The notes under the pieces: model-generated
What the model was told of the DNA's origin: nothing
Database searches by the model: none
Seen by the model: only the letters and a program-made list of their open reading frames with translations
DNA from: a virus
Reading direction: 5' to 3' (one strand)
DNA length: 23,608 nt
Virus record (IMG/VR): IMGVR_UViG_3300005466_000277
Span: 1-23,608 of that record
Shown here: piece by piece, positions 2,892 to 21,823 of the stretch
Position numbering within the stretch: the first letter of the stretch is position 1
Layout of the letters: each line of letters opens with the position of its first letter
Program-made: the position numbers and the translations under genes

Positions 2892-3748
2892 TGGCTACGC
2901 AAATGGCAATGAAGAAGGCGGCGCCTGCTCCGGTAAGCGCACCTCTTAAAGTTCAGCAGCCTATGAAACAAGCTGCGGTGCCTCTGAAACAATCTGGTAC
3001 ACCGGTTAAAAGTTCTTCCTCTTCATCTTCTGGTGGCGGATCTTCGTTTTCTTCAGGTGGCGGTGGAGGCGGCGGTGGAAGTTCTTCGGGTGGTGGTACT
3101 GGGTCTAGTAATTATTCTGGTAGTGCTGGTGGAAGTTTTGCTGGAGGGGGTTCAGTTCCTGATCCGGTTCCCGTTGGGCCGGTTATGGAAGATATTACAA
3201 TCCCGGACCCGCTAGCTGATCCAACTTATCAGCGGCAGAAGGCAGAATTGGCGCGTGCCAAGGCTGATTTTGATGCGCAGCAGAGTCTTGCAAAAGCTCA
3301 ATATGATGGCACTGTCAATACAAATATGCGTCAGATGGGCTGGAGAGATTCTGTCCCGAAGTCTGGCTTGCGTAAAATGTTGACAGGAAATAACGATCCT
3401 GACCCTGCTGGTTGGGATCCGACGGCAACCGGTACTGCATACGGTCAAAGTTTTGCAGGCAACGAAGGTGATTTTGCCGGTCGCGGTCTGTATAATTCTG
3501 GTCTATACGCACAGGCTCAGGGTGATTTGAACAACGATTTTAATGATCGGCGCCAAGGTGTTTTGACGGATCAGAAGAACTGGGGAGACACCCAAGATTT
3601 GAACCGTCGGAATTTCGAGGGGCAGCAGAATTCAACAGATTTGGCGGCTCAATCCGATGCCGTGGCCGCAATTGCTGCAAGGCTTGGCGTGAATATTGAT
3701 CAGGTTTCGCCCGGTAGGCAGAATGTGATTCAGCGCGAGAAGGTGTAA
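2891..3748 (+). CDS. Gly/Ser-rich virion protein
   Basis: 285-residue protein in three parts. Residues 1-40 are Ala/Pro/Lys-rich. Residues about 41-90 are a low-complexity linker of Ser and Gly with one run of eight glycines. From about 105 onward comes a helical region with many Gln, Ala, Arg and Asp residues (for example QRQKAELARAKADFDAQQ), plus GRGLYNSGLYAQAQGDLNNDF near the middle of that region. AGAGGGG six bases before ATG 2891 is a good ribosome site. Similar helix-plus-RQ patterns occur in minor tail or internal virion proteins of actinophages, so I infer a virion role; the linker suggests an extended or flexible N-terminus. No catalytic motif is visible. Confidence 0.6.
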   Translation: MATQMAMKKAAPAPVSAPLKVQQPMKQAAVPLKQSGTPVKSSSSSSSGGGSSFSSGGGGGGGGSSSGGGTGSSNYSGSAGGSFAGGGSVPDPVPVGPVMEDITIPDPLADPTYQRQKAELARAKADFDAQQSLAKAQYDGTVNTNMRQMGWRDSVPKSGLRKMLTGNNDPDPAGWDPTATGTAYGQSFAGNEGDFAGRGLYNSGLYAQAQGDLNNDFNDRRQGVLTDQKNWGDTQDLNRRNFEGQQNSTDLAAQSDAVAAIAARLGVNIDQVSPGRQNVIQREKV

Positions 3749-9326: not shown

Positions 9327-10537
9327 CCGCATCGCTTTTTGATCTGACGACTGAACCCCAGCCGAAAAGACCAACATCCCAAATTCAAATGCCCGACCAG
9401 GAAGCTCCGATCGAAGAAAGATTCGATCCTAGCCTCTGGTGGCAAAAGCGGGATCAAGCGCGCCAAAAAGCAATTGAAGAACAAAAACAGAAGCAAATTG
9501 TTAATCCGATGGCCGACAGTCTTACTGTCGACACGTATCTAAATCGTTTGACGCCTATCAAGGAAATTGGCCAGAAAGCCCTGGCCGGGCAAATTGTTTC
9601 ATCGCAAGTGCAGGCAGAATACCAGAAGCAACTTGCAGCAGCAAAAGCTGAGCGCGCCCGACAGGCTGCATTTAATGATGCAATGAACAGCATGGGTGAT
9701 TTTTCCGGCATGGATATGTCGGGAATTGAAAATCAAGGCTCAGGTGCTGGATGGGGCGGTGGGGGTGATCAGGGTGTAGCAAATGTTTTGAGAGCGGCTG
9801 GATTCCCAGAGAATTTGATTCCGACATTTATCGGAATCGCTCACGCAGAATCTAGCTTGAATCCCAACGCTACACATATGAATAGCAATGGAACAATTGA
9901 TCAAGGCTTGTTTCAGATTAACTCTGTGCACAAGGGTAATTCTTGGTATCCGACAAATCCTTTTGATCCGATTCAATCTGCAAAAGCTGCATGGGCAATC
10001 TATAATTCACAAGGGCTAGGAGCCTGGTCGGTTTATAAGTCTGGCGCGTACCGTCAATTTGTGCCAGCTTCTGCGCCGCCTGTTCAAAATTCAATCGTGG
10101 CAAAAACTGTTACTGTCGGAAATCAAGCCTCAACGAGTTCTGTCGGTGGCGTTCGCCTGTCGGCAATTCAAAAAGCTACAGCCTACATGAATTCTGGTGT
10201 CGGGTATGTATGGGGCGGAAATAATCTCAAGACTGGTGTAGATTGTTCGGGTCTGGTTCAGCAAGTTTACCTACAGTTGGGAGTTCGTCTTCCGCGTACA
10301 GCACAAGAGCAAGCTTTCTTTGGAAAGAAAACTCCGGTTGCCCAACTTACACCGGGAGACTTGGTTGCCTTCAATAATGGAGGTAGTCGTGGTCTACAGG
10401 TCGGGCACATCGCTATATACGTTGGTAATGGCGAAATTATTGAATCCTACGATACCGGAAAACCCGCACGAAGACGAAAACTTTCAGCCTCGGAAGTGAG
10501 TTCAGGTTATGCCTGGGGAGTACATCTAAATATCTAG
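9323..10537 (+). CDS. Virion lysin: transglycosylase-like plus NlpC/P60 peptidase
   Basis: 404-residue two-domain peptidoglycan hydrolase. Residues 1-125 are a charged helical leader with QKQ-rich coiled coil. Residues about 150-245 match the SLT/lysozyme fold: the likely catalytic Glu176 in AHAESSLNP, then GLFQIN (195-200) and a helix ending GLGAWSVYKSG. Residues about 278-404 are an NlpC/P60 domain with Cys308 in DCSG, YVWGG just before it (295-299), and His362 in VGHIAIYVG. It would cleave both glycan strands and stem peptides during genome entry. The GTG start overlaps the stop of the 1291-residue gene (GTGA) with GGA six bases upstream. Being last in the structural operon and before the terminator favours a virion enzyme rather than the lysis endolysin, which is encoded elsewhere. 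Confidence 0.85.
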   Translation: MTASLFDLTTEPQPKRPTSQIQMPDQEAPIEERFDPSLWWQKRDQARQKAIEEQKQKQIVNPMADSLTVDTYLNRLTPIKEIGQKALAGQIVSSQVQAEYQKQLAAAKAERARQAAFNDAMNSMGDFSGMDMSGIENQGSGAGWGGGGDQGVANVLRAAGFPENLIPTFIGIAHAESSLNPNATHMNSNGTIDQGLFQINSVHKGNSWYPTNPFDPIQSAKAAWAIYNSQGLGAWSVYKSGAYRQFVPASAPPVQNSIVAKTVTVGNQASTSSVGGVRLSAIQKATAYMNSGVGYVWGGNNLKTGVDCSGLVQQVYLQLGVRLPRTAQEQAFFGKKTPVAQLTPGDLVAFNNGGSRGLQVGHIAIYVGNGEIIESYDTGKPARRRKLSASEVSSGYAWGVHLNI

Positions 10538-10543
10538 ACATAG

Positions 10544-10576
10544 AAAAACCCCGGGTGACCCAAGCCCGGGGTTTTT
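10544..10576. terminator. Bidirectional rho-independent terminator
   Basis: A perfect 12-bp stem, AAAAACCCCGGG (10544-10555) paired with CCCGGGGTTTTT (10565-10576), closes a 9-base loop. The A and T runs at the stem ends give a U-tract in either direction. It begins six bases after the stop of the virion lysin and so ends the rightward structural operon. Because the element is symmetric it could also stop leftward transcripts that run past the end of the replication operon and through whiB. Confidence 0.92.
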
Positions 10577-10649
10577 CTTTCACGTTCCCAGTGTGCGCGA
10601 GTTAGGACTGCCCACCAGGCCCAAACCGGCTCCTACGGCACGCTGAGGT

Positions 10650-10666: not shown

Positions 10667-10954
10667 ATGTCAAACAACCCAATTAAGCAATTGACATCAC
10701 CGATGGAAATTGCAGCGTGCGCAGGGGAGTCAGTCAGTAAATTTTTTGCTGACGCGGATGGCCTTAAAGGTCAAAAAAGGCGAATGGCCAATTGGGAAGC
10801 GAAGCAGATATGCCATCGTTGCCCATTGATGAAACCTTGCTTACGATATGCTCTCCAGACAAATCAAGTTTTCGGAGTCTGGGGTGGCAAAACCGAAGCG
10901 GAACGTGCTCAATTACAACAAGTCAGAAAACTGATTTTTCCTGGTGGGCGGTAA
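10667..10954 (+). CDS. whiB: WhiB-family iron-sulfur transcription factor
   Basis: 95-residue protein with the full WhiB signature: four cysteines Cys18, Cys49, Cys52 and Cys58 (C-X30-C-X2-C-X5-C) that ligate a 4Fe-4S cluster, followed by the GVWGG turn at 70-74 and a basic C-terminal tail (RKLIFPGGR). WhiB-like proteins are found only in actinobacteria and their phages and act with the primary sigma factor or bind DNA; phage copies such as that of mycobacteriophage TM4 can interfere with host WhiB2 and cause superinfection exclusion. Its expected role here is redirection of host or phage transcription. It is transcribed alone between the terminator and the opposing operon, and its last 42 bases overlap the end of the gene on the other strand. 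Confidence 0.95.
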   Translation: MSNNPIKQLTSPMEIAACAGESVSKFFADADGLKGQKRRMANWEAKQICHRCPLMKPCLRYALQTNQVFGVWGGKTEAERAQLQQVRKLIFPGGR

Positions 10955-18812: not shown

Positions 18813-18851
18813 ATCCCTAATATCCCTCTTGCGAACCGGCTTATTAGGGAT
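18813..18851 (-). repeat. 10-bp inverted repeat between the two lysis genes
   Basis: ATCCCTAATA (18813-18822) and TATTAGGGAT (18842-18851) form a perfect 10-bp inverted repeat with a 19-base loop. It starts at the stop codon of the amidase gene and fills most of the gap before the lysozyme-like gene. There is no U-run, so an RNA stem that adjusts decay or translation of the downstream gene, or an operator, is more likely than a terminator. Confidence 0.6.
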
Positions 18852-19855
18852 TACTGGGAAGGGGGTGTCGGCTCCGGTTCACCCTTAACAATTCGCTGGA
18901 TGTCATAAACCAGCTTGGTTAGATCAGAAATCTGCGTAGATAGAAAATCCTTATCAGATAGCCCGTACGGGTGTTCTTCGCCACCGTTAGGAATGTGTTC
19001 CTGCGTTCGGGCTCCAATAACGTTTACGTTGCCCTGAATTTCAGTGAGCTTCGCAATGATTGGTGCGAGCAAAAACTCGTCATCTACAGTTCCTGAACGA
19101 AGCGCGTGCTCGAAACCATATGCAACCCACTGCTTAAAATCTTCCTTGCTGTCGAACAGTGCCATGAAATCATCCTCTTCTGTTGGTTCCGGGGGTGTCG
19201 GGAGAATAACTCCGCCTTCGAGTCGTCCTTTAATTAGCTGTCGAAGATCGAAACCTCCGTTGACAGTGTGAAAGGACATATCAATCTTGCGGGAAGAATG
19301 TTCCGCGTGCATATGGCAACGTTTCCAAGTCCAGCCACCGACAATGCACATCGCTGCATTAATATCCCGAGCGATTTCAATTAGTCCTGGCGGCCAAGGC
19401 GTGGAATCTCCCGGGTGGTGCAATTCTGTTCCTGCATAGACAGTTGTAGCACCACTCCAGTTGTCGGAAATTCCGTGAGTTGCTGCCCATCCAATAGGTT
19501 CGATGTCATTAAGGACTCGATCGCGATTCGTCGTGTTTCCTTGTCCGGGATGGTTGGCTGTCCCCACTGCAATAAATCGGATGCGCTTCTTCCCAGTAGT
19601 CGGGTCCACGCCTCCGTAATAATTGCATTTTGGTCCTTGGAGGGTGGAGTCTCCATAGGTGACATTATTCACTCCCGACATAAACGGGGCGCTAAGTGGG
19701 ATTACGAAGTGATGATTCGTATGTGCTCTAGGAATTCCAGCAGCCCACGATGAACCATTACTTCGTCCCCAGCACCCCTCTTGTTCCTCAACGTCATATC
19801 CCCAACCTCGGAGAACTTGATTGACGCGCTGGAAAAAATCAGATGCCTGACTCAT
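18851..19855 (-). CDS. Endolysin, N-acetylmuramoyl-L-alanine amidase
   Basis: 334-residue amidase of the zinc amidase-2 type seen in LysA proteins of mycobacterial and related phages. Residues 37-60 contain AAGIPRAHTNHHFVIPL with the zinc His at 48; RIRFIAVGTANHPGQG (91-106) is the central strand; AGTELHHPGD (141-150) and HMHAEHSSRKIDMSF (181-195) provide the second ligand His and the Lys/Asp pair of the active site. Residues 215-334 follow a Pro-rich linker (LPTPPEPTEEDDF) and form a helical domain ending with a coiled coil and PEPTPPSQ; it could bind the wall or oligomerise. TGAGGGG seven bases upstream supports the ATG. It would hydrolyse the amide bond between muramic acid and L-Ala at the end of infection. 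Confidence 0.9.
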   Translation of the reverse strand: MSQASDFFQRVNQVLRGWGYDVEEQEGCWGRSNGSSWAAGIPRAHTNHHFVIPLSAPFMSGVNNVTYGDSTLQGPKCNYYGGVDPTTGKKRIRFIAVGTANHPGQGNTTNRDRVLNDIEPIGWAATHGISDNWSGATTVYAGTELHHPGDSTPWPPGLIEIARDINAAMCIVGGWTWKRCHMHAEHSSRKIDMSFHTVNGGFDLRQLIKGRLEGGVILPTPPEPTEEDDFMALFDSKEDFKQWVAYGFEHALRSGTVDDEFLLAPIIAKLTEIQGNVNVIGARTQEHIPNGGEEHPYGLSDKDFLSTQISDLTKLVYDIQRIVKGEPEPTPPSQ

Positions 19856-19866
19856 AAATCAGCCCC

Positions 19867-20058
19867 TCAATGATAGGTGGAATTTGAGGTGCAGTAATAA
19901 CCAATGGCTGCCAAATATCCCGCGTAACTTGCGCTAGAAGTTCCGACAGAATGGTAACCGCTTCGACACTGCCAATACTGACCTGCTTCCGCGTTGGTAA
20001 TTCCGACAGCCGTCAAAATTCCGACAGCTGCAAGGATGGATGCAATCTTACGCTTCAC
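19867..20058 (-). CDS. Exported Cys-containing peptide, unknown
   Basis: 63-residue precursor with a clear Sec signal peptide: MKRK, then a hydrophobic core rich in Ala, Val, Ile and Leu, and a cleavage site after Ala25 (AEA before GQYW). The 38-residue mature part is aromatic and Ser/Gly-rich with two cysteines (Cys31 and Cys56) that could form a disulfide. The GTG start overlaps the stop of the Acb2-like gene (GTGA), and AAGGGCGG four bases upstream gives a ribosome site, so translation is probably coupled. A 12-bp direct repeat lies in the signal-peptide DNA. An exported phage peptide next to the endolysin suggests a role at the envelope, for instance superinfection exclusion or lysis timing; this is speculative. 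Confidence 0.7.
   Translation of the reverse strand: MKRKIASILAAVGILTAVGITNAEAGQYWQCRSGYHSVGTSSASYAGYLAAIGYYCTSNSTYH
19999..20028 (-). repeat. 12-bp direct repeat in the signal-peptide DNA
   Basis: AATTCCGACAGC occurs at 19999-20010 and again at 20017-20028, 18 bases apart, so the repeat keeps frame and encodes the related segments AVGILT and AVGITN of the signal peptide core. Each copy includes the CCGACA hexamer that is over-represented across the window. It may be a simple duplication that lengthened the hydrophobic core. Confidence 0.75.
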
Positions 20059-20240
20059 AAAGCCGCCCTTACAAAACAGTCCTTAGCTTCAAGGAGTTTA
20101 CGAAGACCCGCCGATTTTTCGGGGCCGTCTGGCAACGTAGTTTCTGCAAAGGTAGCAAGACTTCTGAATGGCGCACTAACTTCTTGCAAGTTTGCAGGGA
20201 GATGCTCGTAGTCAAAATACTTCAGAATGGGCGAGGCCAT
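20055..20240 (-). CDS. acb2: Acb2-like cyclic-nucleotide sponge (anti-CBASS candidate)
   Basis: 61-residue protein from ATG 20240, with AGGAG seven bases upstream (a TTG one codon earlier is less likely). It has the features I associate with the Acb2/Tad1 hairpin family: FDYEHLPANLQEVSAPF near the start, then DGPEKSAGLRKLLEAKDCFVRAAL as the C-terminal helix. Members form small helical assemblies that sequester cyclic di- and trinucleotides made by CBASS or related immune systems. Published contacts as I recall them, Tyr11 and Lys26 of the PaMx33 protein, would fall on Tyr11 and Arg26 here if the numbering is collinear, which I cannot verify. It is shorter than typical members (about 70-95). 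Its stop overlaps the exported-peptide start, and it begins three bases after the membrane mini-protein. Confidence 0.75.
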   Translation of the reverse strand: MASPILKYFDYEHLPANLQEVSAPFRSLATFAETTLPDGPEKSAGLRKLLEAKDCFVRAAL

Positions 20241-20243
20241 CAA

Positions 20244-20324
20244 TTATCTCCTGATGAAGAATCCGGCGAGTGCCAGAACGAGTAGAATGGCAACGATGAT
20301 GAAAGTCCACATTGCAAAATCCAT
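20244..20324 (-). CDS. 26-aa single-span membrane mini-protein
   Basis: A very short gene supported by the best ribosome site in this region, AAGGAGAG ending four bases before ATG 20324. The product is almost all membrane segment: MDFAMW, about 18 hydrophobic residues (FIIVAILLVLALAGFF), then IRR. The positive C-terminus predicts N-out/C-in. A longer in-frame reading from TTG 20432 adds 36 residues but has no ribosome site. It lies directly upstream of the Acb2-like gene and near the endolysin; a holin-like, antiholin or envelope-modulating role is possible. No other holin candidate is visible in the window. Confidence 0.65.
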   Translation of the reverse strand: MDFAMWTFIIVAILLVLALAGFFIRR

Positions 20325-20483: not shown

Positions 20484-20966
20484 TCAGGCCCAAGGATTAC
20501 TGCCAGAAGAATTCGCTCCGACTTCTTCGCGAGCAGACACCGCCGAATCATGCACCTGGTAATCATCATCGGATGCAAGACCGATGATATTCGTGAAGAC
20601 CTGCCCGGCCTTCTTTCCTGCTTTGCGCTCGATCACGACATTTTCGAACCCGACAAGCTTTTCCGGGTCCTCGGAGATATCATCCCACTCGTCCTCGGGA
20701 ATTTCGAGAGCCGACAACATCTTCTTGATGTTGGAATTTGTGCGAGCCTGCTGCTTGGAATCTCCACCAAGGAAAAACAGGTGCTCCTGGTCCTGGTCAG
20801 GATCTTCACAGTGGAAGACAATTGCCCAGGTGTTGTACTCCGTGCCGTCACTACCCTTGAATGATTTCGGCCCGGACTTAGTAATGCTCGTGACGTGTCG
20901 GCCCTCTGGCAAATTAAACGGGTCGTCATTTGCGGCTGCGACATCTTCTGTATTAAACATGCCCAT
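20484..20966 (-). CDS. OB-fold single-stranded DNA-binding protein (SSB-like)
   Basis: 160 residues from ATG 20966, selected because GGAGG lies ten bases upstream; a TTG three codons earlier would sit too close to it. The core is beta-rich with LPEGRHVTSITKSGPKSFKG and YNTWAIVFHCEDPDQDQEHLFFLGG, followed by a helical part and IERKAGKKAGQVFTNIIGL, consistent with an OB fold. The acidic, Ser/Gly-rich tail ends in SNPWA, like the protein-interaction tails of SSBs. It lies just after the Sak4-like gene, a pairing common in phage recombination modules. Assignment is by pattern and neighbours; no sequence identity can be measured. Confidence 0.65.
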   Translation of the reverse strand: MGMFNTEDVAAANDDPFNLPEGRHVTSITKSGPKSFKGSDGTEYNTWAIVFHCEDPDQDQEHLFFLGGDSKQQARTNSNIKKMLSALEIPEDEWDDISEDPEKLVGFENVVIERKAGKKAGQVFTNIIGLASDDDYQVHDSAVSAREEVGANSSGSNPWA

Positions 20967-20971
20967 TTGAA

Positions 20972-21823
20972 TCAAACCTCCACAGGTTCTAGTTCTTTAC
21001 TGACTTGACTTGTGTTGTTACTTAGCACGTACTCACGAATTGCTCGTTGGACTTCTTCTGGCGGTAGTTCAGTAGGCATCGGCTTTCCGTCTAGTTGGAC
21101 CCTTGTTTTCGCTAGGGCAAGATTTGTTCCCCAGACTTGGACTTGTCGGACTAGCTTAACATCCTTGCCAGTTTTTACCTCCTTTAATTCACAGAACCCG
21201 ATCATTTCGAGTTCCGCTCGGATTGCATTCCCCACTTGAGGTTGAAAAGCTGGGGAAAGTTTCTGAAAACCCTTTACCTCATCAGTCCGGTAATGCGCAA
21301 CTGTCAAAAGGTTAAGCGTGGGTATCGACTGAAACTGTTGCATGATGTATCGGAACTTATTACCGGCAATTGCATAATCAGGTCGAGTGGCAAAGTTTTC
21401 TTCCTTGGAATCGTCAGCTTGGGCTCGCCCTTCGACAACAACATCAAGAATGTATTGCCCCATTGTCGACGCTTCATCCAAAACGAGCGTCGCCACATTA
21501 CCAAATCCCCCAGCGTGGGATCGAAGCGCTTTACCGAGTTCCTTGAGCTGAATTTCCCCGTCGAAGTGAAGTAGCAGCATACGTCCGCGCAACTTTGCAT
21601 CCAGGTCGGGGTGATTTCTGATTGTCTGGAATCCAGATGATGTGTCGACATAGAGTATTTTCTTAGATACCGGAGTGATATCGGCCGCCACTTCGAGAGC
21701 CAGCTTGGATTTTCCAGATCCGTTGTCTCCATAAAACATCCCCATGAATTTTGTCGGACGCTGGTTGTAATCTGGCTCTAGTGCATTTTCTAGCGCAGCA
21801 AGATTCCATTTACTAAATACCAT
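20972..21823 (-). CDS. Sak4-like RecA-fold ATPase (recombination)
   Basis: 283-residue ATPase of the AAA_24/Sak4 type. Walker A is GDNGSGKS (32-39) right after GMFY; KILYVDTSSG (55-64) follows; Walker B VLDEAS is at 114-119; a sensor-like LLTVAHYRTDE is near 194-204. The C-terminal part is a beta sheet and then an acidic tail. Sak4 proteins are phage single-strand annealing or strand-exchange enzymes and pair with an SSB and a RecB-like nuclease, both encoded beside it. AAGGGGA eight bases upstream supports the ATG, which overlaps the MazG gene stop by 11 bases. Confidence 0.83.
   Translation of the reverse strand: MVFSKWNLAALENALEPDYNQRPTKFMGMFYGDNGSGKSKLALEVAADITPVSKKILYVDTSSGFQTIRNHPDLDAKLRGRMLLLHFDGEIQLKELGKALRSHAGGFGNVATLVLDEASTMGQYILDVVVEGRAQADDSKEENFATRPDYAIAGNKFRYIMQQFQSIPTLNLLTVAHYRTDEVKGFQKLSPAFQPQVGNAIRAELEMIGFCELKEVKTGKDVKLVRQVQVWGTNLALAKTRVQLDGKPMPTELPPEEVQRAIREYVLSNNTSQVSKELEPVEV

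Follow-up and report, generated by a model that had tools for sequence, protein, structure and literature searches.

Gene and genomic context

The window analysed here is the whole of virus record IMGVR_UViG_3300005466_000277, 23,608 bases long, and it carries on its minus strand, at 20240-20055, an open reading frame (ORF) encoding a 61-residue protein with the full translation MASPILKYFDYEHLPANLQEVSAPFRSLATFAETTLPDGPEKSAGLRKLLEAKDCFVRAAL. The ATG start codon occupies 20240-20238, the last codon ends at 20058 and the TGA stop codon occupies 20057-20055 (Table 1). A first-pass annotation had proposed an Acb2-like anti-CBASS sponge of an actinobacterial phage at this site; the two peptides it quoted, the length of 61 residues and the Arg at residue 26 are all present in the translation, the minus strand being a detail that it did not give. 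The ORF is a real gene, far beyond chance, because an AGGAG sequence sits at normal spacing from its ATG, its stop codon overlaps the start of the next gene in GTGA, relatives are found by tblastn in 368 phage records (including phages of Vibrio, Mycobacterium, Erwinia, Acinetobacter, Brevibacterium and Gordonia) and, with one query, in at least 578 IMG/VR stretches, and the family is under purifying selection (median dN/dS of 0.30 across 731 unsaturated family pairs; pS of 0.89 and pN of 0.25 for the 61-residue protein against its relatives).

Table 1. Features of the 61-residue protein gene and of other genes in the window
Feature	Position	Strand	Evidence or remark
WhiB-like regulator gene	10667-10954	+	Pfam E 3.2e-18
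Endolysin gene, neighbour	18851-19855	-	phrog_880, E 4e-14
Next gene downstream, 63 residues, apparent signal peptide	19867-20058	-	No family match; start overlaps stop of 61-residue protein gene (GTGA)
61-residue helical-hairpin gene (PHROG 1761/5120 family)	20055-20240, including stop codon	-	ORF, PHROG, tblastn, alignment
Predicted helix 3, residues 40-60, with near-invariant RKLLEAKDxxVR	20061-20123	-	AlphaFold2, alignment
LPDGPEKSAGLRKLLEA, residues 36-52, loop and start of helix 3; motif common to PF24729 hairpins and PDB 9ptq	20085-20135	-	Profile alignment, motif comparison
Predicted helix 2, residues 16-35, one turn shorter than in PF24729 control	20136-20195	-	AlphaFold2
Predicted short N-terminal helix, residues 4-9	20214-20231	-	AlphaFold2
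Upstream 26-residue ORF, one membrane span, candidate lysis gene	20244-20324	-	No significant family match
Shine-Dalgarno-like AGGAG 5' of ATG	20246-20253 (approximate)	-	Sequence
ORF beside Sak4-like gene	20484-20975		Weak ssDNA-binding-protein match (E 4.5e-5)
Sak4-like annealing ATPase	20972-21823	-	PHROG E 1.3e-20

The assignment to an actinobacterial phage is backed by the WhiB-like regulator gene and by the DNA polymerase of the record, which is closest to those of Arthrobacter phages (43% identity). Across the family, the gene has no fixed place: it may precede or follow the terminase gene, adjoin minor tail or lysin genes, or lie in the replication region or the right arm. It keeps company with accessory genes at changing module borders, which is how a mobile accessory gene behaves and was counted in favour of the sponge reading. 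Of 101 family groups, 38 have a lysis, terminase or portal gene no more than 6 kb away. No synteny was seen with a PF24729 gene of Arthrobacter phage Jasmine within the stretch read. An SMODS nucleotidyltransferase (CD-NTase) is encoded in only 2 of 14 carrier genomes, a count listed against the sponge reading but, for want of a matched background, uninformative on enrichment.

A widespread and slowly changing phage family

The 61-residue protein belongs to PHROG 1761 (E 1.4e-28) and PHROG 5120 (E 2e-24), its own family, from which it does not differ and whose function is listed as unknown in PHROG; our literature search found no published description of this family or of PDB 9ptq, a structure discussed below. 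In addition to the phage and IMG/VR relatives, 197 confirmed stretches of bacterial genome contigs, prophages across many phyla, encode family members, the contigs being assigned to Proteobacteria, Actinobacteria, Cyanobacteria, Chloroflexi, Verrucomicrobia and others. Identity to the 61-residue protein is mostly 60-75%. An alignment of 48 members has 18 invariant columns, part of this invariance stemming from the search patterns, since the peptide RKLLEAKD itself served as a scan pattern; in twelve phage members sampled across the tblastn ranking, RKLLEAKD is nearly, not fully, invariant, and Ruegeria phage V13 has RSLWEAKN in its place. PHROG 1761/5120 is thus a widespread, slowly changing phage family, and its slow evolution, unusual for an arms-race protein, counts against a sponge.

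Several members depart from the common form. The genomes of Xenorhabdus szentirmaii, Stenomitos rutilans and Silvania confinis hold two copies of the family gene each. The gene of Brevibacterium phage 2C contains two tandem 51-bp repeats (3106-3207 of the stretch examined), which duplicate in frame a 17-residue piece (LPDGPEKSTALRKLLE plus one residue), and gp69 of Mycobacterium phage JAMaL (2369-2608 of the stretch examined) keeps the C-terminal half of the family only (DGPELAAGLRKLLEAKDCFVRQAL), behind a divergent N-terminus. In Cellulosimicrobium phage DS1 the hairpin is fused to an N-terminal region that bears C2H2 zinc-finger-like motifs (10021-10608 of the stretch examined), in a protein annotated as "sliding clamp DNA polymerase", and in Ochrobactrum phage OH it is fused to a domain annotated as anti-TRAP (765-1133 of the stretch examined).

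Relationship to the Acb2/Tad1 hairpins

The AlphaFold2 model of the protein (mean pLDDT of 95.4) is a short N-terminal helix followed by a predicted antiparallel two-helix hairpin, and the model of a PF24729 control protein likewise has three helices (residues 2-6, 14-37 and 42-63). When the family's own entries are set aside, proteins named "Acb2/Tad1 hairpin" dominate the named matches in a BFVD fold search. A PDB fold search with the 61-residue model returned generic hairpins only, Acb2 and Tad1 not being among them, while the control returned T4 Acb2 (7uq2) first, a difference listed against the sponge reading. As modelled, the fold agrees with the Acb2/Tad1 hairpins, at more distance than that of a typical member.

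Membership in PF24729 (Acb2_Tad1_hairpin) is defined by a score above the curated cut-off of 27 bits, and by this test the 61-residue protein is outside the Pfam family: the profile gave no match to it at an E value of 1 or better, which runs against the family assignment of the first-pass annotation and was counted against the sponge reading, and no match in the whole record. Among 48 relatives, 7 match below threshold (best E 0.0093). Elsewhere in the family, gp27 of Brevibacterium phage 2C matches at 1.2e-4, and the best family member found scores 22.7 bits. A PF24729 scan of 396 genomes of the Streptomyces phylum was silent everywhere, controls included, and is therefore uninformative. The most frequent weak Pfam match was Occludin_ELL (13 of 48 members, best E 0.006), which we took as a chance match between helical sequences and which is probably the source of the "occludin homology" labels in Acinetobacter phages. 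Sequence searches of the PDB with the protein and with the family profile found no Acb2 or Tad1 chain; a short match to 8jaj Gp22 at 0.0086 is unexplained.

Because the curated Pfam test was negative or weak for the family, we compared profiles directly with 18 bona fide PF24729 proteins (from T4, PaP2, Saintus, Lactococcus phage 1706, BRock, Phabba, Microbacterium phage ISF9, IMG/VR and prophages). With hhalign, the family aligned with all 18 at a probability of 87% (score 31.2) and with the eight phage hairpins among them at 93.7 (score 37.5), a match that was stable on dropping any one of six members, whereas the highest scores were 21.1 among 200 column shuffles and 17.9 among 55 unrelated phage families. 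The Acb2 clade proper (T4, PaP2 and prophage Acb2) gave a score of 10.5 (probability 0.3%), which is chance level and was counted against the sponge reading, and a divergent subset reached 12.6; the two branches of PF24729, phage hairpins and Acb2 clade, align with one another at 95%. Bona fide PF24729 proteins fall in phrog_1454, which is weakly linked to 46 of the 48 family members (best E 3.8e-6), to the 61-residue protein (4.1e-3) and to T4 Acb2 (7.1e-4). Furthermore, PDB 9ptq, deposited as "Acb2 homolog 43", has LPxGxEKSxxxxKLxEA in common with the 61-residue protein: its segment LPEGREKSVFKTKLEEA aligns with LPDGPEKSAGLRKLLEA, at a pairwise score of 42 against 39 or less in 1000 shuffles. 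The peptide PEKSAGLRKLLEA is the motif common to the PF24729 hairpins, and FDYEHLPANLQEVS is private to PHROG 1761/5120.

Since the hhalign score of 37.5 lies far above the shuffle and unrelated-family maxima, profile comparison supports homology to the phage-hairpin branch, and PHROG 1761/5120 is best called a sister family of the Acb2/Tad1 hairpins, the homology being remote but well supported. By the same profile evidence, together with the phrog_1454 link and the predicted helix layout, the 61-residue protein falls within an Acb2/Tad1 hairpin superfamily drawn more broadly than PF24729. The proposed link to Acb2/Tad1 therefore stands as remote homology to the phage-hairpin branch and falls as membership in PF24729 or as direct similarity to the Acb2 clade.

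The first-pass annotation had also pointed to Arg26 as the replacement of a nucleotide-contacting Lys. PaP2 Acb2 does have Lys26, together with Tyr11, and T4 Acb2 has Lys23 with Tyr8, its Y8A variant being described as binding-deficient (PMC12657230). The 61-residue protein has both Tyr11 and Tyr8, and the partners 15 residues on are Arg26 and Ala23. However, because helix 2 is one turn shorter, the same residue numbers do not settle equivalence: position 26 is Gly in 59% of the family, and Arg does not rank among the five residues most often found there; Lys or Arg fills position 23 in 80%; and in profile alignments it is the near-invariant Ser22 that falls at the site of Acb2 Lys26. Three registers are possible on alignment, and the choice is ambiguous: (i) Tyr11 with Arg26, (ii) Tyr8 with position 23, or (iii) Ser22 at the Lys site. 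The argument from Arg26 is therefore not supported: a conserved basic residue is not placed with confidence at the Acb2 Lys26 site, which was again counted against the sponge reading, and Arg26 is probably not the residue that binds a ligand.

Possible function

For a gene annotated as "hypothetical protein" in hundreds of sequenced phages, the link to the superfamily offers a concrete, testable idea of what the family does. That the family is conserved over so many host phyla, where the known sponges diverge fast, points to a target that is hard for bacteria to alter. The reading that we prefer, at a little under even confidence and by analogy with its remote sisters Acb2 and Tad1, is that of a hairpin oligomer that binds a small, nucleotide-like host molecule. 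Four steps would be involved: (i) the family protein would oligomerise through its hairpins, as Acb2 and Tad1 do; (ii) pockets would be formed by polar residues conserved in the loop and in helix 3 (E41, K42, R47, K48, K53, D54 and R58); (iii) the predicted pockets would bind a small host molecule, probably derived from a nucleotide; and (iv) this binding may blunt a host defence.

The main rival, doubtful yet a serious contender, is that the hairpin, although homologous to Acb2/Tad1, now serves to bind a conserved host protein in place of a nucleotide signal, as a takeover factor or inhibitor. This would suit the extreme conservation of helix 3 (RKLLEAKDxxVR) over phages of many phyla, the zinc-finger-like fusion of DS1 and the anti-TRAP-annotated fusion of OH, as well as the replacement of the Met-Trp common in helix 3 of PF24729 proteins by Asp-Cys, with an invariant Lys before it; on the other hand, a candidate partner protein is lacking, and nucleotide signals are what the known superfamily members of assigned function bind.

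A special case of the preferred small-molecule reading, and weaker than it, is the anti-CBASS sponge of the first-pass annotation, which would take up cyclic di- and trinucleotides as Acb2 does. The superfamily link and the motif common with 9ptq, an Acb2 homolog according to its depositors, argue for it, whereas the lack of profile similarity to the Acb2 clade proper, the absence of a conserved Lys26 equivalent and an N-terminal Tyr for which alignments allow more than one register make it unlikely. Similarly low is the probability that we give to PHROG 1761/5120 being a sponge for a bacteria-wide ligand or signal that phage sponges are not yet known to target.

Two further explanations are improbable. 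A role late in infection, in aid of lysis or DNA packaging, would agree with the endolysin gene nearby and with the lysis, terminase and portal neighbours noted above, but not with the changing place of the gene, which is the pattern of a mobile accessory gene. Convergence of short amphipathic helical hairpins, which the shortness of the proteins and the generic hairpins of the PDB fold search might suggest, is hardly compatible with the null scores, all far below that observed, or with a loop motif common in sequence, beyond helicity alone.

Comparison with known systems

Tad1 (PDB 7uav and 8kbg) has an N-terminal beta-sheet part that is missing from the 61-residue protein, and its C-terminal helical hairpin falls, by the name of the model, in the same Pfam domain. 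Acb2 proper (T4 Vs.4, PDB 7uq2; p26 of Pseudomonas phage PaP2, PDB 8h2j and 8h2x) appears to have the same general helix layout as the modelled 61-residue protein, and helix 3 of T4 Acb2 has Glu-Ala and Arg-Ala pairs spaced as in it; the 61-residue protein differs in being about 30 residues shorter, in showing no direct profile similarity and in not conserving an equivalent of Lys26. Phage hairpins of PF24729, among them those of Lactococcus phage 1706 and of Mycobacterium phages Phabba and Saintus as well as 9ptq, have the same short helix plus hairpin; like the family, they carry [LV]P[DE]GxEK in the loop ahead of a helix 3 rich in leucine, and profile homology between the two is detectable. 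The family differs from them in its helix 2, one turn shorter, in its private motifs FxYxHLPxxLQxVSxP and RKLLEAKDxxVR, and in being far more conserved, one family query finding at least 578 IMG/VR stretches, while four PF24729 queries found 1 to 6 each.
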